DNA of 40,062 nucleotides from Candidatus Poribacteria bacterium (GTDB lineage: Bacteria > Poribacteria > WGA-4E > WGA-3G). Position numbers and translations under genes: made by a program. Shown here in pieces: positions 11,802 through 34,140 of the stretch (its first letter is position 1; each line of letters starts with the position of its first letter). The stretch is taken from positions 1 through 40,062 of the forward strand of contig JAJEAG010000031.1 of NCBI GenBank assembly GCA_022824265.1, read 5' to 3'. The notes under the pieces are model-generated. The model did no database searches. It saw only the letters and a program-made list of their open reading frames with translations, and was not told where the DNA came from.

Positions 11802-11845
11802 GTGATTGTTAGGACTAACGCAATTTAAGGATTCAATTGCAGAAA

Positions 11846-12979
11846 ATGAGTCAAACACATTTAGGATATGAGGATAGGGTCAACTTAGGAAGTTACTATA
11901 CGCCATCTAAATTTGTGAAGTTGGCATGGGAATTAATCGAACCTTACATAGATTCAAAAACGACTATAATTGACACTGCTTGTGGATATGGAGACTTTCT
12001 AAAGAATCGTGGACAACTAAATACAATTGGGTGTGATATAGACGAAGACGCAATAAATAAAGCGAAAAAGAACACGGATAAAGTCCAATTCTTTCAAACA
12101 AATTCTTTACATAACGTTTCAAGGGGGAAATTTGGGATTCCGCTACAGTCAACAAAACTGATTGTCGTAGGAAACCCACCCTATAACGATAGAACATCAC
12201 TTATTCGTCACAAGATAAAAAATGTCGATTTTGATGTTGATGCAGATATAAAAAGTCGAGACTTGGGAATATCGTTTCTCCGTTCCTATAATAAACTTGA
12301 AGCAGACTTTATCTGTGTTTTACATCCATTGTCGTACTTGATAAAACAAACAAATTTCAAACATTTGAAGGAGTTCACTGCACATTATAAACTGATAGAT
12401 GGCATACTAATTAGTAGTGGGAAATTCCCGGAATCCGCAAAGCATACCCCATTTCCGATTATCATTGCCTTGTATCAACGTGATAATTCAGGAATGGAGT
12501 ACAGTGATATACGTTCCTTTGCATTTAGGACAGTAGATGGGAATCGTTTCTGTCTTAGTGATTTTGATTTTATCCCAAACTATATCAGAAAATATCCGAG
12601 TAAACAGCAGCAACCGATCCCTGATGATTCGTTATTTTTCTGGACAATGCGGGATATTAACGCATTAAAAAGGAATCGCACTTTTGTCAAAAACTATAGC
12701 ACTAACACGATTGTCCTTGACAAAAGCAAACTGGATTATTACGCTTATGTAGATGTTTTCAAAAGGAACCTTCATAGACTCCCGTTTTATTTTGGGAACT
12801 GTGATGTTCCGATAGATGATAAACTTTTCCAACAGTCCAAACCTTGTTTCATCAGTGATACTATTAGACATCATCCTTATTTAGAGAAGCATTTTCAAAT
12901 TGAACCGATAGAAAAGGAGCATGTGGAGACTGAAATAGATAGGTATTTCAAGCAGCTATTAGGCAATTATCAAGTTTGA
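11846..12979 (+). CDS. DNA methyltransferase, N6-adenine type (NPPY)
   Basis: The 377-residue product (from the ATG at 11,846) has a SAM-binding motif I, IDTACGYGDFL (about 42-52), and motif IV NPPY at 110-113, the order and type seen in N6-adenine DNA methyltransferases of the TaqI/Eco57I kind. An N-terminal GSYYTPSKFVKLA segment matches motif X. The C-terminal part is probably the target-recognition region. No nuclease gene lies beside it, so it is an orphan here. It is more AT-rich than the flanking nuo genes and splits nuoL from nuoM, both signs of insertion. A TTG at 11,837 with better-placed TAAGGA is an alternative start. Confidence 0.8.
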   Translation: MSQTHLGYEDRVNLGSYYTPSKFVKLAWELIEPYIDSKTTIIDTACGYGDFLKNRGQLNTIGCDIDEDAINKAKKNTDKVQFFQTNSLHNVSRGKFGIPLQSTKLIVVGNPPYNDRTSLIRHKIKNVDFDVDADIKSRDLGISFLRSYNKLEADFICVLHPLSYLIKQTNFKHLKEFTAHYKLIDGILISSGKFPESAKHTPFPIIIALYQRDNSGMEYSDIRSFAFRTVDGNRFCLSDFDFIPNYIRKYPSKQQQPIPDDSLFFWTMRDINALKRNRTFVKNYSTNTIVLDKSKLDYYAYVDVFKRNLHRLPFYFGNCDVPIDDKLFQQSKPCFISDTIRHHPYLEKHFQIEPIEKEHVETEIDRYFKQLLGNYQV

Positions 12980-13585: not shown

Positions 13586-15166
13586 TTGCTACTCTCAATC
13601 GTTATTTTTTTACCACTACTTGGTGTGATAGCCATTGCGTTGCTCAGAGGATTGGGCGCGAATGCTGTTAAATGGATCGCACTCGGTATTGGACTACTCA
13701 CCTTTGTCATATCAATAAGACTTTACACTGAGTTTGATACTGCTAACGTTGGATTCCAAACTAACTCAGAAGTATACCAGAAACTGGATTGGATTCCCGG
13801 TATAGGTGCAAGTTATCACATCGGCATTGACGGTATTTCGTTGTGGTTAGTGCTACTAACAACATTCCTAACACCGATATGTATTATCGCCGCGTGGAAT
13901 TCAGTAGAAAAAGGTTTGAGCGGGTTTATGATGTCCCTCCTCGCTTTGGAAACAGGGATGTTAGGTGTATTTTGCGCTTTAGATCTATTTCTATTCTTCG
14001 TATTCTGGGAGTCGATGTTGATTCCGATGTATTTCCTTATCGGAATATGGGGTGGTGAACGTCGAATTTATGCCACTATCAAGTTCGTCCTCTATACAAT
14101 GGCGGGTAGTGCGCTAATGTTAGTTGGCATTTTAGCACTATACTTCCAAAACAATAACAGTTTTGATATTACAACATTACAAGGACAATTTGAGCCATCT
14201 AATCTCCTATTCCTTGCCTTTTTCATTGCCTTTGCAATCAAAGTTCCTCTATTTCCTTTCCATACTTGGCTACCCGATGCACACGTTGAAGCACCTACTG
14301 TAGGAAGTGTAATCCTTGCAGGTGTCCTGCTAAAAATGGGTACCTATGGAATAGTCCGTTTTTGCCTACCCCTTTTTCCAGAAGCAGCAGCACACTACAC
14401 ACCGCTAATAGTTACATTAGCAGTTATCGGCATAATCTACGGTGCATTAGTAGCAATGGTGCAACCGGACCTGAAAAAGTTGGTAGCGTATTCCAGTGTG
14501 AGTCACCTCGGTTTTGTTGTCTTGGGTCTTTTTTCACAAAATGGCACCGCTATACAAGGTAGCGTTCTGCAGATGGTTAATCACGGCTTAAGCACTGGTG
14601 CGTTGTTCCTGTTGGTCGGTATGATTTATGAACGACGACACAGTCGTATGATAGTTGATTTCGGTGGGCTTGCAAAGAAAATGCCTATCTTCGCGACCAT
14701 CTTTCTGATTGTAACGTTATCGTCCATAGGTTTGCCCGGACTCAACGGATTTGTTGGGGAATTCATGATTCTACTCGGCAGTTATGTTGGCGGAGCATTC
14801 TCAAAATGGTACGTAGTCTTAGCAACAACAGGCGTGATTTTAGCAGCAGTCTACATGTTATGGATGTTCCAACGCGTTATGTTCGGAACACCGAACGACA
14901 TAAACGCAAGTCTACCTGACCTAAAACCGCGCGAAATCGCTGTCCTACTACCGATACTTCTGTTTATCTTCTGGATTGGCGTTGGACCGAATACCTTCTT
15001 AAAACCGATGGAAGCATCTGTAAAAGAGATAGAAGCAAAGGTTAGAGTTATCCCTGAAACTCCCGCAGTTGGACAAGTTAATCATCAAACGGACACCGAT
15101 GACGCTGTTGTGGATGTTAAAACCGCAACCCTAAAGATAAATGAAGAGGAGGCACTGTCAAAGTAG
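13586..15166 (+). CDS. nuoM: NADH-quinone oxidoreductase subunit M (TTG start)
   Basis: NuoM is the second antiporter-like membrane subunit of complex I. The 526-residue product has the catalytic Glu in FVFWESMLIPMYFLIG, and the PLFPFHTWLPDAHVEAPTVG region with a following Lys (LLKMGTYG). I take TTG at 13,586 as the start: AAGGAG lies at 13,574-13,579 with ideal spacing, and there is no in-frame ATG before the first helices. The C terminus has a soluble tail of about 50 residues rich in Val, Asp and Glu. The stop codon TAG shares its G with the GTG start of the antiporter gene. Confidence 0.94.
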   Translation: MLLSIVIFLPLLGVIAIALLRGLGANAVKWIALGIGLLTFVISIRLYTEFDTANVGFQTNSEVYQKLDWIPGIGASYHIGIDGISLWLVLLTTFLTPICIIAAWNSVEKGLSGFMMSLLALETGMLGVFCALDLFLFFVFWESMLIPMYFLIGIWGGERRIYATIKFVLYTMAGSALMLVGILALYFQNNNSFDITTLQGQFEPSNLLFLAFFIAFAIKVPLFPFHTWLPDAHVEAPTVGSVILAGVLLKMGTYGIVRFCLPLFPEAAAHYTPLIVTLAVIGIIYGALVAMVQPDLKKLVAYSSVSHLGFVVLGLFSQNGTAIQGSVLQMVNHGLSTGALFLLVGMIYERRHSRMIVDFGGLAKKMPIFATIFLIVTLSSIGLPGLNGFVGEFMILLGSYVGGAFSKWYVVLATTGVILAAVYMLWMFQRVMFGTPNDINASLPDLKPREIAVLLPILLFIFWIGVGPNTFLKPMEASVKEIEAKVRVIPETPAVGQVNHQTDTDDAVVDVKTATLKINEEEALSK

Positions 15167-16659
15167 TGAAGTCAAAAATCGTATTTTGTCTAATTCTTTG
15201 TGTCATTTTAGCACTTACAGTATCATTTTCAATAGAAACCTTCGCAGCGGATGAGCCACACGGTGACGAAGCTGCTCACCATAGCGGAGGTGTAGATGGC
15301 GCAAAGTTACCGCTTTGGAGTATTATTCCTTTTATCGGAATCCTGCTATCAATCGCAATTTTCCCACTCGTGTTTGACTCCCATTTTCTTGTTCACCACG
15401 GTGGAAAAATGTCTCTGATATGGGGATTAGTCTTCGCAATCCCATATCTCATTGCTTTCAGAGGTGAGGCTTTTTATGATATCCTGCACATCTATTTATT
15501 AGACTACATCCCGTTCATCATTCTTTTATGGGGATTATTCACCGTAGCAGGTGGTATCCTTGTGCGTGGTACACTCCGAGGAACCCCAATAGTCAATACT
15601 GTGTTATTGTTAATCGGAACTATCATTGCCTCCTGGGTAGGAACTACTGGCGCATCAATGCTGCTTATCCGTCCCTTAATCAAAGCAAATGCATACCGCA
15701 AGAAAAAGGTTCATCTTGTCGTCTTTTTCATTTTTCTCGTAAGTAACATCGGTGGTTCCTTAACGCCATTAGGTGACCCGCCTCTTTTCCTCGGATTTCT
15801 CCGAGGAGTGCCATTTTTCTGGACAACTACCGCGTTATTACCACACATGCTTTTTATAAGTACGATCTTAATTGTTCTATTCTTTATATTTGATACTGTG
15901 ATGTTTAAACGGGAAGGCGGCGTTGTACCGGATGATGGAACTAAGGAACCGATTCGCGTTGAAGGTCTCTTTAACCTCGTCTTCTTACTCGGAATCGTTG
16001 GCGCAGTCTTAATGAGTGGTTCGTTCAAATGGGGTGAGGTGAATATTCTCGGTGTGCATGTATACTGGCAGAATATAACTCGTGAACTATTGATTGTTGC
16101 AATGGGGGTGTTGTCCCTCTTATTTACGCCATTTAGTGGAGAATTACGTCAAACCAACGAATTTTCATGGGAACCAATTGAGGAAGTAGCAAAAGTCTTC
16201 GCAGGAATATTTATAACAATAATTCCTGCACTTGCAATTCTGAAAGCAGGAGAAGCAGGAGCATTAAGGGGTTTGATTGCTTCAATACAAGAACCTTTTC
16301 ACTATTTCTGGATTACTGGTATACTATCCAGTTTCTTGGACAATGCCCCAACGTATTTGACGTTCTTTAATACTGCTCTTGGAAAATTACATCTTTCAGA
16401 AGCAGTCGTGCCACAAATTCTTGCAGGACAATTGACTGAACCGCAGCACCTTGAGTTCGTCAGATTACTAACGGGTATCTCTGTTGGAGCAGTGTTCATG
16501 GGGGCAAATACATATATCGGTAATGCACCGAATTTCATGGTAAAATCAATCGCTGAACAGAGTGGTATTCGTATGCCAAGTTTCTTTGGTTTCATGTTAT
16601 GGTCCGTCGCTATTTTATTCCCACTGTTTGTGATTGTTACATTCGTGTTTCTCCGATAA
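15166..16659 (+). CDS. NhaD/ArsB-type ion transporter (putative Na+/H+ antiporter) inside the nuo locus
   Basis: The 497-residue membrane protein belongs to the ion transporter superfamily that includes NhaD antiporters, ArsB and citrate permeases. Features are about eleven hydrophobic helices, the NIGGSLTPLGDPPLFLGFL discontinuous-helix motif (about 192-210), a matching FLDNAPTYLTFFN in the second half, and a late GANTYIGNAPNFMV. A cleavable-looking signal precedes a His-rich stretch (EPHGDEAAHH, about residues 30-39). It starts with GTG overlapping the nuoM stop by one base, with GAGGAGG at 15,146-15,152. Sandwiched between nuoM and nuoN, it could link sodium transport to complex I, but ion specificity cannot be read from sequence alone. 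Confidence 0.85.
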   Translation: MKSKIVFCLILCVILALTVSFSIETFAADEPHGDEAAHHSGGVDGAKLPLWSIIPFIGILLSIAIFPLVFDSHFLVHHGGKMSLIWGLVFAIPYLIAFRGEAFYDILHIYLLDYIPFIILLWGLFTVAGGILVRGTLRGTPIVNTVLLLIGTIIASWVGTTGASMLLIRPLIKANAYRKKKVHLVVFFIFLVSNIGGSLTPLGDPPLFLGFLRGVPFFWTTTALLPHMLFISTILIVLFFIFDTVMFKREGGVVPDDGTKEPIRVEGLFNLVFLLGIVGAVLMSGSFKWGEVNILGVHVYWQNITRELLIVAMGVLSLLFTPFSGELRQTNEFSWEPIEEVAKVFAGIFITIIPALAILKAGEAGALRGLIASIQEPFHYFWITGILSSFLDNAPTYLTFFNTALGKLHLSEAVVPQILAGQLTEPQHLEFVRLLTGISVGAVFMGANTYIGNAPNFMVKSIAEQSGIRMPSFFGFMLWSVAILFPLFVIVTFVFLR

Positions 16660-16740: not shown

Positions 16741-18201
16741 ATGCCATTAGAAATACCAGATATTAATTGGTCACTTTTAATGCCGCAACTTGTTATCGTT
16801 TCAACGTTGCTGATTGTCCTTGTCTTTGACATGTTTGATGCAATCTCAAAAAAGACATTGGGATGGATGACAATCGTTGGTGCGGGGATTGCCTTGTGGT
16901 CATCTATTGATTTATTGCAAGCAGGAATAGATCAAACCCAATTCAACGAAATGTTTCGGATAGATAGTTATTCCTTATTCTTTAACATCATCTTCCTCGT
17001 ATCAACTATTTTGGTCGCTTTGGTCTCAATTAGTTATTTAGGAAGTGGAGATAAAAAGCAGGGACCTTACTATTTACTTATCCTACTTGCAACTCTCGGC
17101 ATGATGCTAATGGCTGCTGGTAATGAGTTGATTATTGTTTTCCTCGGCTTAGAACTAATGTCATTGTCGTTATATGTATTAGCAAGTTATTTCCGAGAAA
17201 GTCCAGCTTCAAGCGAAGCGGGGATGAAATACCTCCTGCTTGGTGCATTTGCGAGTGCATTTTTCCTATATGGAATCGCTTTAGTTTATGGTGCAGCAGG
17301 CACTACAAATATTCCAGAAATTATATCAAAACTTTCCGTTGATGATCAATCTTCCCTACTTTCAGCATCACCTCTATTTTTAGCGGGTATATTCTTGCTA
17401 ATCGTCGGATTTGGATTTAAGGTTGCAATTGTTCCGTTCCATCAATGGGCACCAGATGTTTATGAAGGAGCACCCACTACGATCGCTGCCTTCATTTCAG
17501 CTGGACCAAAAGCAGCGGGATTTGCAGCATTTCTAACTATTTTCGTTGACGCACTACCGAAACTACCAACCCAAGCAACTGGTGTTATCGTGTTATTGGC
17601 AATGTTGACGATGACTGTCGGAAACGTGATCGCTATCGCACAAACAAACATCAAACGCATGCTGGCATATTCAAGTATCGCACATGCTGGCTACGTGATG
17701 ATAGGTTTAGCAGCAGCGAATCCAGATGGTAAATCAAGTGCGATGCTATACCTGTTTATTTACTGCGTTATGAATATCGGTGCATTCGGTGTAGTTATCA
17801 TGGCAAGAACTACTGACGGTGAAAACTTGATGATTTCTGATTACGCAGGACTTGGTTTCCGCAAACCGTTGCTTGCCATGTTTATGACGTTAATGCTCTT
17901 ATCTCTCGCTGGTTTTCCCCCTACTGCAGGTTTTGTTGGAAAATTATATGTTTTTAAATCCGCAGTTCAGGCAGGACATTATTGGCTCGTTATTTTTGGC
18001 GCAATAAACACCGCGATTTCTGCGTTCTACTATCTGCGTGTTGTTGTAACCATGTATATGCGTGAACCAGAAGAGGAATTGGAGTTCAAACCATATCCTC
18101 CAACCTTAGTCATCGGATTGGTGCTTGCAGCAATAGGCATTTTGCTCCTCGGGATTTTACCCTCGCTTCTGCTCAATCCTGCACAAAACGCAGTGCTATA
18201 A
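16741..18201 (+). CDS. nuoN: NADH-quinone oxidoreductase subunit N
   Basis: NuoN is the third antiporter-like subunit, closest to NuoK in the membrane arm. The 486-residue product shows LIIVFLGLELMSLSLYVLA with the key Glu, a Lys in FKVAIVPFHQWAPDVYEGAPT, and KRMLAYSSIAHAGYVMIG. About fourteen helices are apparent and length is typical. GGAGG is placed just before the ATG at 16,741. It is the last gene of the complex I locus; a hairpin with a T-run lies 40 bases after the stop. Confidence 0.96.
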   Translation: MPLEIPDINWSLLMPQLVIVSTLLIVLVFDMFDAISKKTLGWMTIVGAGIALWSSIDLLQAGIDQTQFNEMFRIDSYSLFFNIIFLVSTILVALVSISYLGSGDKKQGPYYLLILLATLGMMLMAAGNELIIVFLGLELMSLSLYVLASYFRESPASSEAGMKYLLLGAFASAFFLYGIALVYGAAGTTNIPEIISKLSVDDQSSLLSASPLFLAGIFLLIVGFGFKVAIVPFHQWAPDVYEGAPTTIAAFISAGPKAAGFAAFLTIFVDALPKLPTQATGVIVLLAMLTMTVGNVIAIAQTNIKRMLAYSSIAHAGYVMIGLAAANPDGKSSAMLYLFIYCVMNIGAFGVVIMARTTDGENLMISDYAGLGFRKPLLAMFMTLMLLSLAGFPPTAGFVGKLYVFKSAVQAGHYWLVIFGAINTAISAFYYLRVVVTMYMREPEEELEFKPYPPTLVIGLVLAAIGILLLGILPSLLLNPAQNAVL

Positions 18202-18240
18202 TTAAGATCAGTCATTCGTAGAAAATACATTTTATAACAA

Positions 18241-18300
18241 CCTCAATATTGATTTGTGAAGATTTTAGATTTCGCAGATTAATACTGAGGTTTTCTTTTT
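18241..18300 (+). terminator. Probable Rho-independent terminator of the nuo locus
   Basis: CCTCAATATTGAT (18,241-18,253) pairs with ATTAATACTGAGG (18,278-18,290), a 13-bp stem with one mismatch and one G-U pair, around a 24-nt loop. It is followed at once by TTTTCTTTTT. The stem is AT-rich and the loop long, so efficiency may be modest, but the position right after nuoN fits. Confidence 0.6.
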
Positions 18301-18463
18301 GTAACACTTGTAGTAGTACAGACCATTACGACTCTTACTTTTTTATAGTGAAACATCAAAATAATACCAATTCTAATAAAATTTTCAGGAAATACGAAAA
18401 AGATGCAACTTTCTTCAAACTTATTTGTAGTAGGGATAACTTCAATGCTCTCGGAGTTACGAT

Positions 18464-19021
18464 ATGACAGAAAAAATATTCCTTGAACTTGTCCGCAAAT
18501 ATCAAGATAAAATATTTCGGCATGCCTTTTACCTTCTCAAAAACAGTGAAGACGCAAAAGATATGACGCAAGAAACCTTTAGTAGGGCATGGCAACATCG
18601 AAATACGATAAGACAAGAAACCGCTCACTCATGGATGCTGAAATGTGTCCAAAATCTCTGCTACAACCAACTAAAACGAAGAAAATTTCAAGTGCATTTA
18701 TCCAGAAAAATCCAAGGACATTTAGCCGATGAAGAAGGCGATACACTTGAAATGCTATTACATAAACACTCACATCAGTCGAATCCATCCCCAGACGAGA
18801 TTACAATTAAACAAGAACTCAAGCAGTTAGTGCACCAAGCTATCAAAGAATTACCGGATTCTATGCAATCAATTGTAATCATGCGAGAAATAGATGAAAA
18901 AAGCTATAAGGAGATAGCAGAGGAATTAGATCAACCTGAAAACACCGTAAAATCAACCGTATTTCGTGCGCGTAAGAAATTACGCGAAATATTAAATCGC
19001 TTATTGGAGATGCAGATATGA
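18464..19021 (+). CDS. ECF-type RNA polymerase sigma factor
   Basis: The 185-residue product has the two domains of a sigma-70 group IV factor. Region 2 lies near residues 8-70 (KYQDKIFRHAFYLLKN, then DAKDMTQETFSRAW, which binds core polymerase and the -10 element). Region 4 lies near 125-175 (LPDSMQSIVIMREIDEKSYKEIAEE, then the helix-turn-helix recognition helix ENTVKSTVFRARKKL). The linker is charged. It starts at 18,464 behind CGGAG and overlaps the next gene through ATGA, so it is coupled to three DUF5694 genes. No anti-sigma factor gene is next to it, so how its activity is controlled is unclear. Confidence 0.9.
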   Translation: MTEKIFLELVRKYQDKIFRHAFYLLKNSEDAKDMTQETFSRAWQHRNTIRQETAHSWMLKCVQNLCYNQLKRRKFQVHLSRKIQGHLADEEGDTLEMLLHKHSHQSNPSPDEITIKQELKQLVHQAIKELPDSMQSIVIMREIDEKSYKEIAEELDQPENTVKSTVFRARKKLREILNRLLEMQI

Positions 19022-19827
19022 AACCGACAATTATGATTCTCAGCAGTACACACTTGGATAATCCAGGACTTGACGCATTTAATCTCAAAATGGATGATGT
19101 ACTCACTCCCAAACGCCAAAGTGAAATTGAATACCTTGTTAAACAACTCATACCGTTCAACCCTACTAAGATAGCCGTTGAACAAGACCCTTCGCGAAAT
19201 GCTGAGATTAACAATAACTACCAAAGTTATCTAAATGGAACGTACAAACTGCAGCGATGGGAAGTTGATCAGCTCGGTTTTCGATTAGCAAAACAGGTGG
19301 GACTTTCACAAGTATACTGTGTGGATCATTTTCGAAGGGATGATCCAATGATTCATTTAGATGAATTAGACGTTAATTTAGTAGATTGTCACAAATTCGC
19401 GAAAGAACATAACCAAGAACATTTCTTACCAAACATTCAGGATTATGTTGATACTGACGCGAAAACACATCAAGGAAAAGACGGTGAAACTTGGATTGAA
19501 CCTACAAAATATGAATCGTTGATAGATATGTATAGAAAACTTAACCAACCCGAAGGCAGACGTGCCGATCATCAAATATACTTACAAATGTCAAAAATCG
19601 GCATAAGTGACCAATATATTGGTGCGAATTGGGTTGGACATCTTTGGTATGCTCGCAATCTAAAAATATATGTTAATCTAACACGCATTGCAGAAACAGC
19701 AGATGATCGGATACTCCTTATTATCGGTGCTGGACATACCTATTTAATTCAACAGTTTCTTGAGGAATCGGGTGATTATAATGTTGAATGTCCACTAAAA
19801 TATTTAGATACGGAGGATGTCAATTGA
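19018..19827 (+). CDS. DUF5694/TraB-like protein, paralogue 1 (His motifs intact)
   Basis: The 269-residue product is the first of three tandem paralogues. It has the pattern I associate with DUF5694, a group resembling the TraB/Tiki/ChaN-type families: an N-terminal SSTH (His12), KIAVEQDPSR with Glu55, the GANWVGHLWYARNLKI region, and a C-terminal GAGH (His240). In related families GxxH histidines and a glutamate form the presumed metal or catalytic site. There is no signal peptide, so it should be cytoplasmic. GGAG at 19,006-19,009 supports the start. It is coupled to the sigma factor (ATGA) and to paralogue 2 (TGATG). The reaction is unknown. Confidence 0.75.
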   Translation: MKPTIMILSSTHLDNPGLDAFNLKMDDVLTPKRQSEIEYLVKQLIPFNPTKIAVEQDPSRNAEINNNYQSYLNGTYKLQRWEVDQLGFRLAKQVGLSQVYCVDHFRRDDPMIHLDELDVNLVDCHKFAKEHNQEHFLPNIQDYVDTDAKTHQGKDGETWIEPTKYESLIDMYRKLNQPEGRRADHQIYLQMSKIGISDQYIGANWVGHLWYARNLKIYVNLTRIAETADDRILLIIGAGHTYLIQQFLEESGDYNVECPLKYLDTEDVN

Positions 19828-20648
19828 TGAAACAAGAAAAGAAACCAACAATCATGATACTTGGTAGTACGCTCTTGGATAATCCTGGGATGGATGCATT
19901 CAACTACAGATGGGATGATGTCCTTGCACCCAAACGACAACGTGAAATAGAACAATTGGTGTCGCTACTCAAACCATTTCAACCTACCAAAATAGCCATT
20001 CAAGCAGACGAAATGTATGATTCCGAGATCAATGCAAACTATCAAGACTATCTAAATGATACATACAAACTGCAAAGAAGTGAAGTTGATCAGATCGGAT
20101 ATCGGTTAGCTAAGCAAATGGGGCATCAGAAGGTATACTGTGTGGACTATAGCCGAAGAGATGATCCAATCATTCCTTTAGATGAACTTGATATGAATTT
20201 GATAGATGTAGACAAATTCGCAATGGAACACAATCAAGAACATCTTCTACCACGATTAGCTGATTTTGCTGATCCAGACGTAGAAACCCTCGAAGAGGAA
20301 GATGGCAAAGTCTGGATTGAACCTAAAAAATACGAATCTCTCATCAATGTTTTCATAAGGTCTAATGAACCTGAAGGCAGGTATGCTGACCATCGGGTAT
20401 ACTTACGAATCGCAAAAGTTGGTATAGGAGACCAATATCCTGGCGCGAATTGGGTTGGACATCTTTGGTATGCACGCAATCTAAAAATCTTTGTCAACTT
20501 AACCCGCATTACCGAATCTGCAGAAGATCGTATTCTTTTAATTGTCGGTGCAGGGCTTGTCTACCTAATTAGACAATTTGTAGAGGAATCGGGAGATTAC
20601 ATCATTGAAGACCCACTAAAATATCTGAAACCGGAGAATAATAACTAA
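19827..20648 (+). CDS. DUF5694/TraB-like protein, paralogue 2 (signature residues lost)
   Basis: The 273-residue product aligns along its whole length with its two neighbours but differs at the three positions most likely to matter. The N-terminal GxxH is GSTL (Leu16, codon CTC at 19,872). The conserved Glu is Gln59 in KIAIQADEMY. The C-terminal GxGH is GAGL (Leu244, codon CTT at 20,556). Each His to Leu change needs a single A to T substitution. The frame is intact and the rest, such as GANWVGHLWYARNLKIF, is conserved, which suggests a maintained but catalytically silent partner. The start at 19,827 has CGGAGGA 10 bases upstream; the 3' end overlaps the next ATG by one base. Confidence 0.75.
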   Translation: MKQEKKPTIMILGSTLLDNPGMDAFNYRWDDVLAPKRQREIEQLVSLLKPFQPTKIAIQADEMYDSEINANYQDYLNDTYKLQRSEVDQIGYRLAKQMGHQKVYCVDYSRRDDPIIPLDELDMNLIDVDKFAMEHNQEHLLPRLADFADPDVETLEEEDGKVWIEPKKYESLINVFIRSNEPEGRYADHRVYLRIAKVGIGDQYPGANWVGHLWYARNLKIFVNLTRITESAEDRILLIVGAGLVYLIRQFVEESGDYIIEDPLKYLKPENNN

Positions 20649-21448
20649 TGAAACCAACAATCATGATTCTTGGCAGCGGACACCTTGCGAATCCGGGGAT
20701 GGATGCATACAATTACAAAATGGATGATGTGCTTGCACCCAAACGACAACGTGAAATAGAACAATTGGTGTCGCTACTCAAACCGTTTTGTCCTACTAAG
20801 ATTGCCCTTGAATTGGATCCAAGTCGTTGCGAAGCTGAAAACAGAGACTATCAAGGTTATCTGAACGGGACTTATGAACTCAAGCGGTACGAGGGTGATC
20901 AAATTGGTTATAGGTTGGCAAAACAGATGGGACATCCAAAGGTATACTGTGTAGATTATTGGCCAGAACAAAATCCATTTTTTCCAGAAGATCTTGACCC
21001 AGATTTGACGGATAGTGACAAATTCGCAATGGAACACAATCAAGAACACCTACTCTCAAGCGTAGAAGATTTTTATGCTGATTCCGACGTTGAATTTCAC
21101 GAGGAGGAAGATGGCAGAGTTTGGATTGTTCCCAAGAAATATGAATCCCTCATTGACATGTATATCCGTGGTAACGAACCTGAAGGTAGGCGCGCTGAAC
21201 ATCAGCTATACCTACGTAGCGCACGGATTGGCTTAGGAGACCAGTATCCGGGAGCCAATTGGCTCTCCCATCGTTGGTACGATAGGAATCTCAAAATTTT
21301 TGTGAACCTAACGCGCATCACTGAATCTGCTGATGATCGAATTTTGTTGATAATCGGTGGTGGACATGTCTATCTTGTTCAGCAGTTTCTTGAGGATTCA
21401 GGGGATTACATCGTTGAAAGTCCCATAAAATATCTAAAAACGGTATAA
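20648..21448 (+). CDS. DUF5694/TraB-like protein, paralogue 3 (His motifs intact)
   Basis: The 266-residue product has the full set of putative site residues: GSGH (His12), KIALELDPSR (Glu55) and GGGH (His240). It shares a 53-base block with paralogue 2 without any mismatch (20,732-20,784 against 19,923-19,975), so those two genes duplicated or converted recently in that part. Its start overlaps the stop of paralogue 2 (TAATG). It ends the operon; I see no clear terminator, only the IS-like hairpin at 21,490. Cytoplasmic location is likely because no signal or membrane segment is visible. Confidence 0.75.
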   Translation: MKPTIMILGSGHLANPGMDAYNYKMDDVLAPKRQREIEQLVSLLKPFCPTKIALELDPSRCEAENRDYQGYLNGTYELKRYEGDQIGYRLAKQMGHPKVYCVDYWPEQNPFFPEDLDPDLTDSDKFAMEHNQEHLLSSVEDFYADSDVEFHEEEDGRVWIVPKKYESLIDMYIRGNEPEGRRAEHQLYLRSARIGLGDQYPGANWLSHRWYDRNLKIFVNLTRITESADDRILLIIGGGHVYLVQQFLEDSGDYIVESPIKYLKTV

Positions 21449-31715: not shown

Positions 31716-32846
31716 ATGAAAAGTACATTTCCTGTGAGAAACTTTTTACATCTGATGGACAACTCTACTGAAACACAGTTAATAAAAAAAATCCTTAAAA
31801 GTCCGCTTGGTTTAGCAGCGAAAATTGTTGAATTTCTTTTTCAGGATAAGTTGCATGAATTGAAAGATGATTTGGATGAAATTAAGCAGTTTGTAGCTGG
31901 AATAAAGCGATCCGAAATACTCGCTGATCACTATTCACTCGCCTCCTACTATCCATACATGTTTGCTTTTCATCAATTTGTTCATAGTTCATTTCGGGCT
32001 AGACAAGGAAAGGTCCTTGAACAAGTGATTCAAGGCATACTAACACAGTATTCAAAATGTGATAGTGTCCCAGATAAGAATCCAGAAAGACTTATGATAT
32101 TAAACCAGATTTTCGAGACTGACGAACTTTCAAACCTTGATATTGATGTAATGGCATCGGATTTGAGAAATAAAAAGACACTTGCTATTCAAATTCGATC
32201 ACGAGATGATACAGGTGGTACAACTGCTAAAGCATCTCTTGTAGAATTATTACGTGAACTCTTGAGAACAAATAAAGTTCCTGTAAACAAATTGCTATAT
32301 CTCGTTTGTGTTTGGGATCCTCGTGACGCTCAACAGAAGAATTCCACGGTCAGAAAAATGTATTCTTCTCTAAAAGACTTTGTTGATATAAACTCGGAAG
32401 CTTTCAACGCAATTGTTAATACAAAAGTAAAATTGAAAGAAAATATATTCTTACAGATTGCTTATGGAACTGATGAAATAGCAAATGCTCTCTTTGAATG
32501 GATAGGTGATAAAAATACAGCAGTATTGAATGCAATATCCATCGTTGTTGATTTAGTAAGCGATTGGGATGATTTATGGGTTGCATACACAATCGCAAGT
32601 TTGGAATTGGAAGTCACCGAATTTTATAGGATGTCAAATATAAACTTAATAAACGAAAAATATGAAAAGATTGGAATTGACTTTAATTTTGGATCTTATC
32701 AAGACTTGACAGATTCAATTGATAACATAGTTCAACAGATAATTCCATTTTGGATTGAAGACAGCATTCCACTAAAATCATTATCAGATAAAGCACAATA
32801 CATCAGGGATTTACTATTTTTGAAAGCATATTATGAAAAATTATAA
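31716..32846 (+). CDS. Putative restriction endonuclease of a type II R-M system
   Basis: The 376-residue product overlaps the following DNA methyltransferase gene by 14 bases, and this pairing is the main reason for the call. Around residues 142-170 it reads LDIDVMASDL, then KTLAIQIRSRDDTGGTTAKA. This resembles a PD-(D/E)xK core in which Asp142 or Asp144 is followed by Gln159-x-Arg161 in place of the usual Glu-x-Lys. A Glu102 may be a further site residue. The gene is more AT-rich than the core genes around it, as expected for a transferred element. I cannot name its recognition site. Confidence 0.6.
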   Translation: MKSTFPVRNFLHLMDNSTETQLIKKILKSPLGLAAKIVEFLFQDKLHELKDDLDEIKQFVAGIKRSEILADHYSLASYYPYMFAFHQFVHSSFRARQGKVLEQVIQGILTQYSKCDSVPDKNPERLMILNQIFETDELSNLDIDVMASDLRNKKTLAIQIRSRDDTGGTTAKASLVELLRELLRTNKVPVNKLLYLVCVWDPRDAQQKNSTVRKMYSSLKDFVDINSEAFNAIVNTKVKLKENIFLQIAYGTDEIANALFEWIGDKNTAVLNAISIVVDLVSDWDDLWVAYTIASLELEVTEFYRMSNINLINEKYEKIGIDFNFGSYQDLTDSIDNIVQQIIPFWIEDSIPLKSLSDKAQYIRDLLFLKAYYEKL

Positions 32847-34140
32847 GCATGAAGAACAAATATCACTTTTTGACATTGAAAAGACCTCTAACATATTAAA
32901 AGAAAGTGTTGAATGTGATGAGGTAGATTTTGTCTCCTTTCGAGAGTTAGTCCCTGAAATCACCGACACAGGTTACCTGACCCACGCCATCGTGTCATAC
33001 CCCGCGAAATTCATCCCACAAGTCGTCAGATATGCAATAAACACTTACACAAAAGAAGATGATTGGATTATTGATCCATTCGCAGGTTCAGGAACTGTAG
33101 GCGTGGAAGCATATCTATGCAAACGAAACGCTGTTCTCTTTGACTTAAACCTGCTTTTAAATCACATTATGCCGCTAAAGGTTTATCGCGGAAAAGAACG
33201 GCTGAAGATAGAATCGTTAGGAAATCTATTAGACGGTATGATAGAGAATAATACACACCTTTTTGCACCATCCTGGTCCAATGTCAACTATTGGTACGCA
33301 CCTGAAATCTTAGAACTGCTTTCGCAATATTGGGGGTTTATCCACAACATAGAACAAGATGTCTATACCGGAATTATCAAATCAGCACTACTAAAGGTCA
33401 GCAAACGCTTCTCCTACACCGAACACAGAACACCAAAATTAGCAAGATCCAAACGTAAGTTAGCGGCAATTGAAGAGCTGCTCAAGGAAAATTGGAAGGA
33501 GAAGCTCATTGATGTAGTCTACGACCACTCCTTCAAAACATTAAGTCGCATAAACGACTTTGTAACCCTTACAAAACATCATCAAAATCAGGTAGATTTT
33601 CATGGGGGCGTTGATTCTTCTTATATTGATGTGCCACGCGAATGTGACGCACTTATCACTTCGCCTCCTTATCTACAAGCACAAGAATACATCCGATCCA
33701 CAAAGATGGATCTCTACTGGTTAGGACACACCGATGAAGAAATTCAAGCACTATCACGTCTTGAAATCCCCTATCGCAAAGCAGACCGTATGATACATAC
33801 AAAAACGTTGGACAATATCAGGGACAAACTCACACGTCCAGACCTATGCAACCGCCTTGACTCCTACTTTTGCCACACGATAAACGCACTTGAAAATACC
33901 GTGAACCGATTGAAACCGAATGCAACCGCATGTATTTTTGTAGGCAATCCACGCATTGATGGCATCACCGTCGAACTCTGGCGAATCTTAGCGGAATATT
34001 TTACAGAACGCGGTTACCAATTTGAAAAAGTCTATGAAGATAGGATTAAAACACGCCAACTGTTCGGAGTGCGTAAAAATAAAAATCCCGATGGAATGAA
34101 GTCGGAATATTTACTTATATTGAGAAAGACGACTGTTTGA
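32833..34140 (+). CDS. DNA methyltransferase (SPPY type) of the R-M system
   Basis: The 435-residue product has SAM-binding motif I DPFAGSGTVG (81-90) and catalytic motif IV TSPPY (276-280). SPPY points to an N4-cytosine (or possibly N6-adenine) methyltransferase. About 190 residues lie between the motifs, consistent with a target-recognition region placed between them. The C-terminal GYQFEKVYEDRI and LLILRK strands finish the fold. The start at 32,833 lies within the end of the endonuclease gene. Past its first 100 bases the codon use looks closer to the host genes than that of the endonuclease. Confidence 0.85.
   Translation: MKNYKHEEQISLFDIEKTSNILKESVECDEVDFVSFRELVPEITDTGYLTHAIVSYPAKFIPQVVRYAINTYTKEDDWIIDPFAGSGTVGVEAYLCKRNAVLFDLNLLLNHIMPLKVYRGKERLKIESLGNLLDGMIENNTHLFAPSWSNVNYWYAPEILELLSQYWGFIHNIEQDVYTGIIKSALLKVSKRFSYTEHRTPKLARSKRKLAAIEELLKENWKEKLIDVVYDHSFKTLSRINDFVTLTKHHQNQVDFHGGVDSSYIDVPRECDALITSPPYLQAQEYIRSTKMDLYWLGHTDEEIQALSRLEIPYRKADRMIHTKTLDNIRDKLTRPDLCNRLDSYFCHTINALENTVNRLKPNATACIFVGNPRIDGITVELWRILAEYFTERGYQFEKVYEDRIKTRQLFGVRKNKNPDGMKSEYLLILRKTTV

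Follow-up and report, generated by a model that had tools for sequence, protein, structure and literature searches.

Why should an operon headed by a sigma factor retain, next to intact copies of the same gene, one copy that lacks residues otherwise invariant in its family? The operon in question lies in a window of 40,062 nucleotides, the whole stretch of DNA that was analysed, from a sponge-associated Poribacterium whose near relatives, where named, are metagenome assemblies of Candidatus Poribacteria. Four overlapping plus-strand genes at 18464-21448 encode an ECF sigma factor (sigma1) followed by three proteins of the DUF5694 family (P1, P2 and P3; Table 1). An earlier note on this DNA had described P2 as a maintained pseudo-enzyme. 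Overall its observation of the locus is confirmed, with support exceeding what was originally claimed, and its gene coordinates, reading frames and three overlaps were unchanged on rechecking.

Table 1. Features of the sigma1 operon and the region upstream, in window coordinates
Feature	Position	Strand	Detail or basis
Junction where the sigma2 - anti-sigma - DUF4252 - DUF4252/CBM9 block is absent	18195..18380	.	block of about 3.4 kb in G002 and G009
Presumed autoregulated ECF promoter, TGCAAC-N14-TTTGTAGTA	18404..18432	+	conserved box; -35-like TGCAAC, -10-like GTAGTA
ECF sigma factor (sigma1), 185 aa	18464..19021	+	Pfam/NCBIfam profiles
Gene overlap sigma1/P1	19018-19021		ATGA
DUF5694 paralogue 1 (P1), 269 aa	19018..19827	+	His12/Glu55/His240 intact
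Gene overlap P1/P2	19825-19829		TGATG
DUF5694 paralogue 2 (P2), 273 aa	19827..20648	+	presumed pseudoenzyme (Leu16, Gln59, Leu244)
P2 Leu16 codon CTC, in place of invariant His12	19872..19874	+	alignment
53-nt P2 tract identical to P3 20732-20784	19923..19975	+	between the Leu16 and Gln59 codons
P2 Gln59 codon CAA, in place of invariant Glu55	20001..20003	+	alignment
P2 Leu244 codon CTT, in place of invariant His240	20556..20558	+	alignment
Gene overlap P2/P3	20646-20650		TAATG
DUF5694 paralogue 3 (P3), 266 aa	20648..21448	+	His12/Glu55/His240 intact

Gene identities and the residues lost from P2

The first gene had been taken for an ECF sigma factor, and profile matches to sigma region 2 (Sigma70_r2, PF04542, 1.6e-13) and region 4 (Sigma70_r4_2, PF08281, 4e-17), the only domains present, bear this out, as does a match to TIGR02937 above its cut-off. 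The assignment of the three downstream genes to DUF5694 (PF18950) is equally secure, with scores of 169, 155 and 151 bits against a curated cut-off of 27.5; a search of NCBIfam returned no match for these proteins. The paralogues share 64-71% pairwise identity and have no evident signal sequence, and no further similar DUF5694 gene was found in the whole genome. DUF5694 is an uncharacterised family, distributed across bacteria and archaea, for which we know of no biochemical activity, and a literature search found no paper that names it and none on ECF sigma factors of Poribacteria. Four annotated plasmid relatives are single genes with no annotated sigma factor beside them; the genes described here, by contrast, are tandem and sigma-linked, and one of them is degenerate.

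An alignment of 12 diverse DUF5694 proteins from Poribacteria, Acidobacteriota, Bacteroidota, Halobacterium, Shewanella and Halobacillus, with degenerate proteins left out, contains 15 invariant positions, including His12, Glu55, Glu82, Gln85, Asp103, Arg213, Arg231 and His240. P1 and P3 keep all of these named residues, which are invariant even in distant members of the family. P2 lacks exactly His12, Glu55 and His240 while retaining Glu82, Gln85, Asp103, Arg213 and Arg231, and each of its three replacement codons differs from the ancestral-type codon by a single base, in a frame that is otherwise intact. Codons and alignment therefore agree both with the claimed substitutions, P1 and P3 being intact, and with the supposed conservation of the two histidines and the glutamate across the family. 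In a wider table of 116 DUF5694 domains from 51 genomes, Glu55 and His240 are each present in 92 of the 92 domains outside P2 and the fusion lineage described below, and His12 in 90 of them, whereas all seven P2 orthologues have Gln55 and Leu240. This argues that the substitutions in P2 are more than chance.

The order of motifs in DUF5694, with GxxH after strand 1, the glutamate of (V/A)xE after strand 2 and GxGH after the last strand, is common to TraB/PrgY/GumN proteins (PF01963) and the TIKI/EreA/ChaN superfamily. Activity in the TIKI superfamily is reported to require a His-Glu pair together with a second histidine (PMC6254334). Two (G)xxH-type histidines and a glutamate are found at strand ends in P1 and P3 only, P2 being without all three. 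The Pfam TraB profile weakly matches three of 11 DUF5694 proteins (best E 0.0016), and the hhalign alignment of DUF5694 with TraB (E 2.6e-5, probability 75) spans 32 columns in the GxGH region. A fold search of the PDB with the DUF5694 models gave no match below an E of 0.001; the top Foldseek match of both the P2 and the P3 model, at a sub-threshold E of 0.02-0.04, is a chain from the respiratory supercomplex of Tetrahymena that is independently recognised as a TraB family protein by its match to the TraB profile. Matches to histidine-phosphatase-like folds were set aside because of their low scores, and a PDB sequence search with the DUF5694 profile produced chance matches only.

Kinship with the TraB/TIKI hydrolases, as the earlier note had suggested, is thus likely on the strength of the motif order, a weak profile match and a sub-threshold fold match, no one of which settles the matter by itself. 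The TraB proteins compared have a C-terminal membrane part that DUF5694 proteins lack, P2 lacking the motif residues as well. TraB proper was found in none of the 50 genomes of the phylum that were searched (40 + 10), so DUF5694 in these genomes is not a misread TraB gene. His12, Glu55 and His240 are presumably catalytic, and from their conservation and the kinship with TraB/TIKI proteins we infer that P2 is catalytically dead.

Constancy of P2 and a second degenerate lineage

Sigma1 is followed by DUF5694 genes in seven genomes of the genus: G000, which is the genome of the window itself, and G002, G006, G009, G010, G015 and G016. A P2 orthologue is present in every one of these cassettes, always with the changes from Glu55 to Gln and from His240 to Leu; the random loss among relatives that would have told against a maintained paralogue, according to the earlier note, is not seen. 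Leu12 is confined to G000, G002 and G009, the other four P2 orthologues having His12, which indicates that this replacement is a later change rather than an ancestral one. The partners of P2 vary, being P1 and P3 in G000 and G002, P1 in G009 and G015, and P3 in G010 and G016. The P1 adjoining P2 in G006 has lost His12 to Tyr, and ~5 kb downstream there is an intact P3-like copy. P2 is therefore the constant member of the cassette and the sole DUF5694 paralogue kept in all seven. The expectation that the sigma-triplet order would recur holds for a sigma factor, P2 and an intact paralogue, but the three-gene order is seen only here and in G002. Placement of P2 between two active paralogues fails as a rule, as the five other operons have one partner and the P1 of G006 is without His12.

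Nei-Gojobori comparisons of pairs of orthologues gave dN/dS values of about 0.09-0.16 for P2, 0.09-0.20 for P1 and 0.07-0.15 for P3, with dS ranging from 0.1 to more than 1. Purifying selection on P2 is thus as strong as that on its intact paralogues, and a stop codon or frameshift is found in none of the seven P2 orthologues. Together with the identical substitutions in seven genomes, the low dN/dS upholds the view of P2 as a maintained degenerate paralogue and led to the rejection of decay as a pseudogene.

AlphaFold2 models of single chains have a mean pLDDT of 90 and a pTM of 0.89 for P2 and for P3 alike, with strands and helices arranged in a closely similar succession, and P2 is accordingly predicted to retain the fold. 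It resembles known enzyme/pseudoenzyme pairs in its predicted fold, in the loss of presumed catalytic residues, in the purifying selection upon it and in its adjoining intact paralogue; it differs from such pairs generally in that two forms with different substitutions exist and in the link to an ECF sigma operon. To our knowledge no enzyme/pseudoenzyme pair has been reported among DUF5694 or TraB-like proteins. The locus provides a clear bacterial case in which a presumed pseudoenzyme is the component that an operon retains most constantly.

The tree does not recover P2 as one clade, yet a single P2 clade is not rejected (AU test, p-AU 0.36); P1 may have been pulled towards P2 by gene conversion, traces of which are seen. 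The 53-nt tract shared by P2 and P3 occurs in G000 only, and in G002 the two genes share no run of at least 24 nt. It is suggestive of a recent gene conversion that left both flanking degenerate sites in place.

A differently degenerate protein, a DUF4252-DUF5694 fusion, is present in 17 genomes of the sister genus. The DUF5694 part of all 17 has Phe or Leu at position 12, Tyr55, Ala103 and His213, with His240 kept. The typical cluster there consists of a sigma factor, a zinc-finger anti-sigma factor, DUF4252, the fusion and further DUF5694 copies; the fusion has a signal-like N-terminus, as do many of the further copies. The tree sets the P2 and fusion lineages apart, with 100/99 support for a 27-row clade containing P2, but joining them is not formally rejected (AU test, p 0.09). 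A certain independent origin was consequently dropped, and the case for one rests mainly on the different substitutions in the two lineages. The fusion is the only DUF5694 protein found in G044, a single contig of about 95% completeness, and also in G026 and G029, where contigs are short. It may act alone, and its occurrence in G044 implies that a degenerate DUF5694 protein is not always dependent on an intact partner. A large subgroup in the sister genus, with proteins ending in GAGHLGF, has Leu for His185 while keeping His12, Glu55 and His240 (L037, 5030-6001, and similar loci).

The presumed promoter box and the missing anti-sigma gene

Of 34 regions upstream of related sigma genes, nearly all contain the box TGCAAC-N14-TTTGTAGTA, usually ~25-35 nt ahead of the start codon. 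Its arrangement of TGCAAC, 17 nt and GTAGTA agrees with the AAC-type -35 element and 16-17 nt spacer of ECF promoters. In 20 relatives, a scan allowing no mismatches detected 60 sites, as against one for the reversed pattern. The genome of the window contains exactly one exact box, that in front of the sigma1 operon; sites with two mismatches occur as often as with the control pattern and were taken as chance. The idea of a dedicated sigma factor is in effect upheld by this single site. Sigma1 presumably uses this box, and seems to activate no operon but its own.

Two variants of this region were seen among relatives. In G021 the sigma promoter box is in tandem duplicate, with about 80 nt between copies (L091, upstream of 9713, minus strand), and a AGCAAGTTTTGGCTTGCAAGCT-type repeat lies between the promoter box and the sigma start codon at L043, L071, L073 and L077; at L071 no box occurs within 150 nt upstream of the sigma gene.

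Other box sites in relatives precede ABC-2 permease operons, CBM9/DUF5916 genes, DUF5694 genes and a PA14-domain gene that is followed by a DUF4252/Omp85-type gene. The earlier note had conjectured a heteromeric or regulatory stress-response module; the gene content of these putative regulons points to cell-envelope functions. A search for the ABC-2 permease detected none in G000, G002, G009 or G010, whereas four other congeners have it. A wider regulon in the genome of the window was considered and rejected, as its two CBM9-domain genes have no box nearby and it is among those where the permease was not found. By the measure of exact boxes, the regulon here would have shrunk to the cassette itself.

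An adjacent cognate anti-sigma factor is common among ECF sigma factors, though not universal. Modules of ECF sigma factor, zinc-finger anti-sigma factor and DUF4252 adjoin DUF5694 genes in relatives from both genera, with the box before the sigma gene, and in close relatives sigma2, anti-sigma and DUF4252 genes adjoin the sigma1 cassette. In G002 and G009, nuoN is followed in turn by sigma2, anti-sigma, DUF4252, DUF4252/CBM9, sigma1 and the DUF5694 genes, whereas the window passes directly from nuoN to sigma1, having lost the anti-sigma and DUF4252 genes, and sigma1 is followed by DUF5694 genes only. At the junction, blastn matches to the end of nuoN extend to about 18194 and those upstream of sigma1 resume at 18381-18396. 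No anti-sigma gene was detected in the window or the whole assembly, while the same query finds matches in all eight other congeners searched, and sigma1 is the one factor of its group left in this genome, compared to two each in G002 and G009. An assembly gap is unlikely to account for this, since the junction falls within a single contig of an assembly that is 96.7% complete. As congeners keep the gene and sigma2 has gone too, the absence is best read as a derived, lineage-specific loss. The earlier description of the operon as lacking an anti-sigma gene is correct for this genome, but not as an original feature of the cassette. The locus amounts to a natural experiment on an ECF sigma factor that has outlasted its anti-sigma neighbour.

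Possible roles of the degenerate paralogue

In every related operon examined, selection has preserved P2 despite the loss of its presumed catalytic residues, and this suggests a non-catalytic role, as do its constant presence and constraint. The interpretation preferred here, which we hold at about even chances, is a self-activating sigma cassette in which the dead paralogue serves as a non-catalytic partner, sensor or brake. Sigma1 would recognise the box upstream of it and transcribe its own operon, and, the exact box being the only one, the output of the cassette would be sigma1 and three DUF5694 proteins. P1 and P3 would probably be active hydrolase-like proteins of TraB/TIKI type that have a His-Glu pair and one more histidine at strand ends. 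P2, with its fold and its remaining invariant polar residues retained, would be incapable of such His/Glu chemistry, and would most likely be an obligate partner, a ligand sensor or a brake for an active paralogue. It would, we infer, work through its active paralogues.

A different target for P2 is an attractive speculation given the loss of the anti-sigma gene: the DUF5694 proteins, and above all P2, could be a cytosolic anti-sigma-like brake on sigma1 itself, replacing the zinc-finger anti-sigma factor, with release of sigma1 upon ligand binding by P2 or its turnover by P1 or P3. In all seven cassettes a DUF5694 gene, never an anti-sigma gene of its own, directly follows sigma1, and in G010 and G016 that gene is P2; the sole sigma factor of its group, left without the anti-sigma factor and activating itself, would also need restraint. 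However, most of the other cassettes have an anti-sigma factor nearby that might act on the two sigma factors alike, DUF5694 shows no anti-sigma motif, many DUF5694 proteins of the sister genus carry signal-like N-terminal extensions and could not bind a cytosolic sigma factor, and the gene may just have been lost recently in this genome, so that this brake on sigma1 appears rather doubtful. The fuller proposition, that a dead TraB/TIKI-like P2 took over control of the ECF sigma factor after the zinc-finger anti-sigma factor was lost, either holding sigma1 or gating the active paralogues, in a closed loop where sigma1 transcribes only its own regulators, is taken as a whole improbable. If true, it would represent a new type of cytosolic sigma control built from an enzyme/pseudoenzyme pair.

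P2 might instead still be an enzyme of altered chemistry or specificity, with Gln59 and the retained Asp107, Arg217 and Glu86 forming a different site. The identical Gln and Leu in seven genomes, the retention of the remaining invariant polar residues and the His12 of four orthologues are consistent with this, but two of the three invariant His/Glu residues, and here all three, are replaced, two of them by leucine, which can act as neither base nor ligand, making an altered enzyme unlikely. It is quite improbable that His12, Glu55 and His240 bind a structural metal or ligand with which P2 is a variant able to dispense: the metal of EreB and Bcr136 is reported to be structural rather than needed for activity, and VvRRSP is metal-independent (PMC6254334), but invariance across bacteria and archaea and a TraB/TIKI-like position at strand ends fit an active site better. 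Least credible is the view of P2 as a duplicate in decay that has so far been saved by its place in a translationally coupled operon. One branch shows a stepwise loss, with His12 going after Glu55 and His240, and relatives contain some broken copies among many tandem ones; against this, dN/dS is as low as in the intact paralogues over the whole range of dS, all seven reading frames are open, and P2 alone occurs in every cassette, so that the codon comparison largely refutes such decay. The locus gives DUF5694 a probable active site, two natural forms that have lost it and a defined candidate promoter, which makes the function of the family testable.

Other genes in the window also merit description. 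Within the nuo operon upstream, a gene with an NPPY motif, resembling N6-adenine DNA methyltransferases, lies between nuoL and nuoM (11837-12979); directly after the corresponding gene, G002 has about 0.8 kb without a match to the window. Between nuoM and nuoN is a gene resembling an NhaD-type sodium/proton antiporter (15166-16659). Further downstream, at 31716-34140, an adjacent pair of genes resembles a restriction endonuclease and a DNA methyltransferase.
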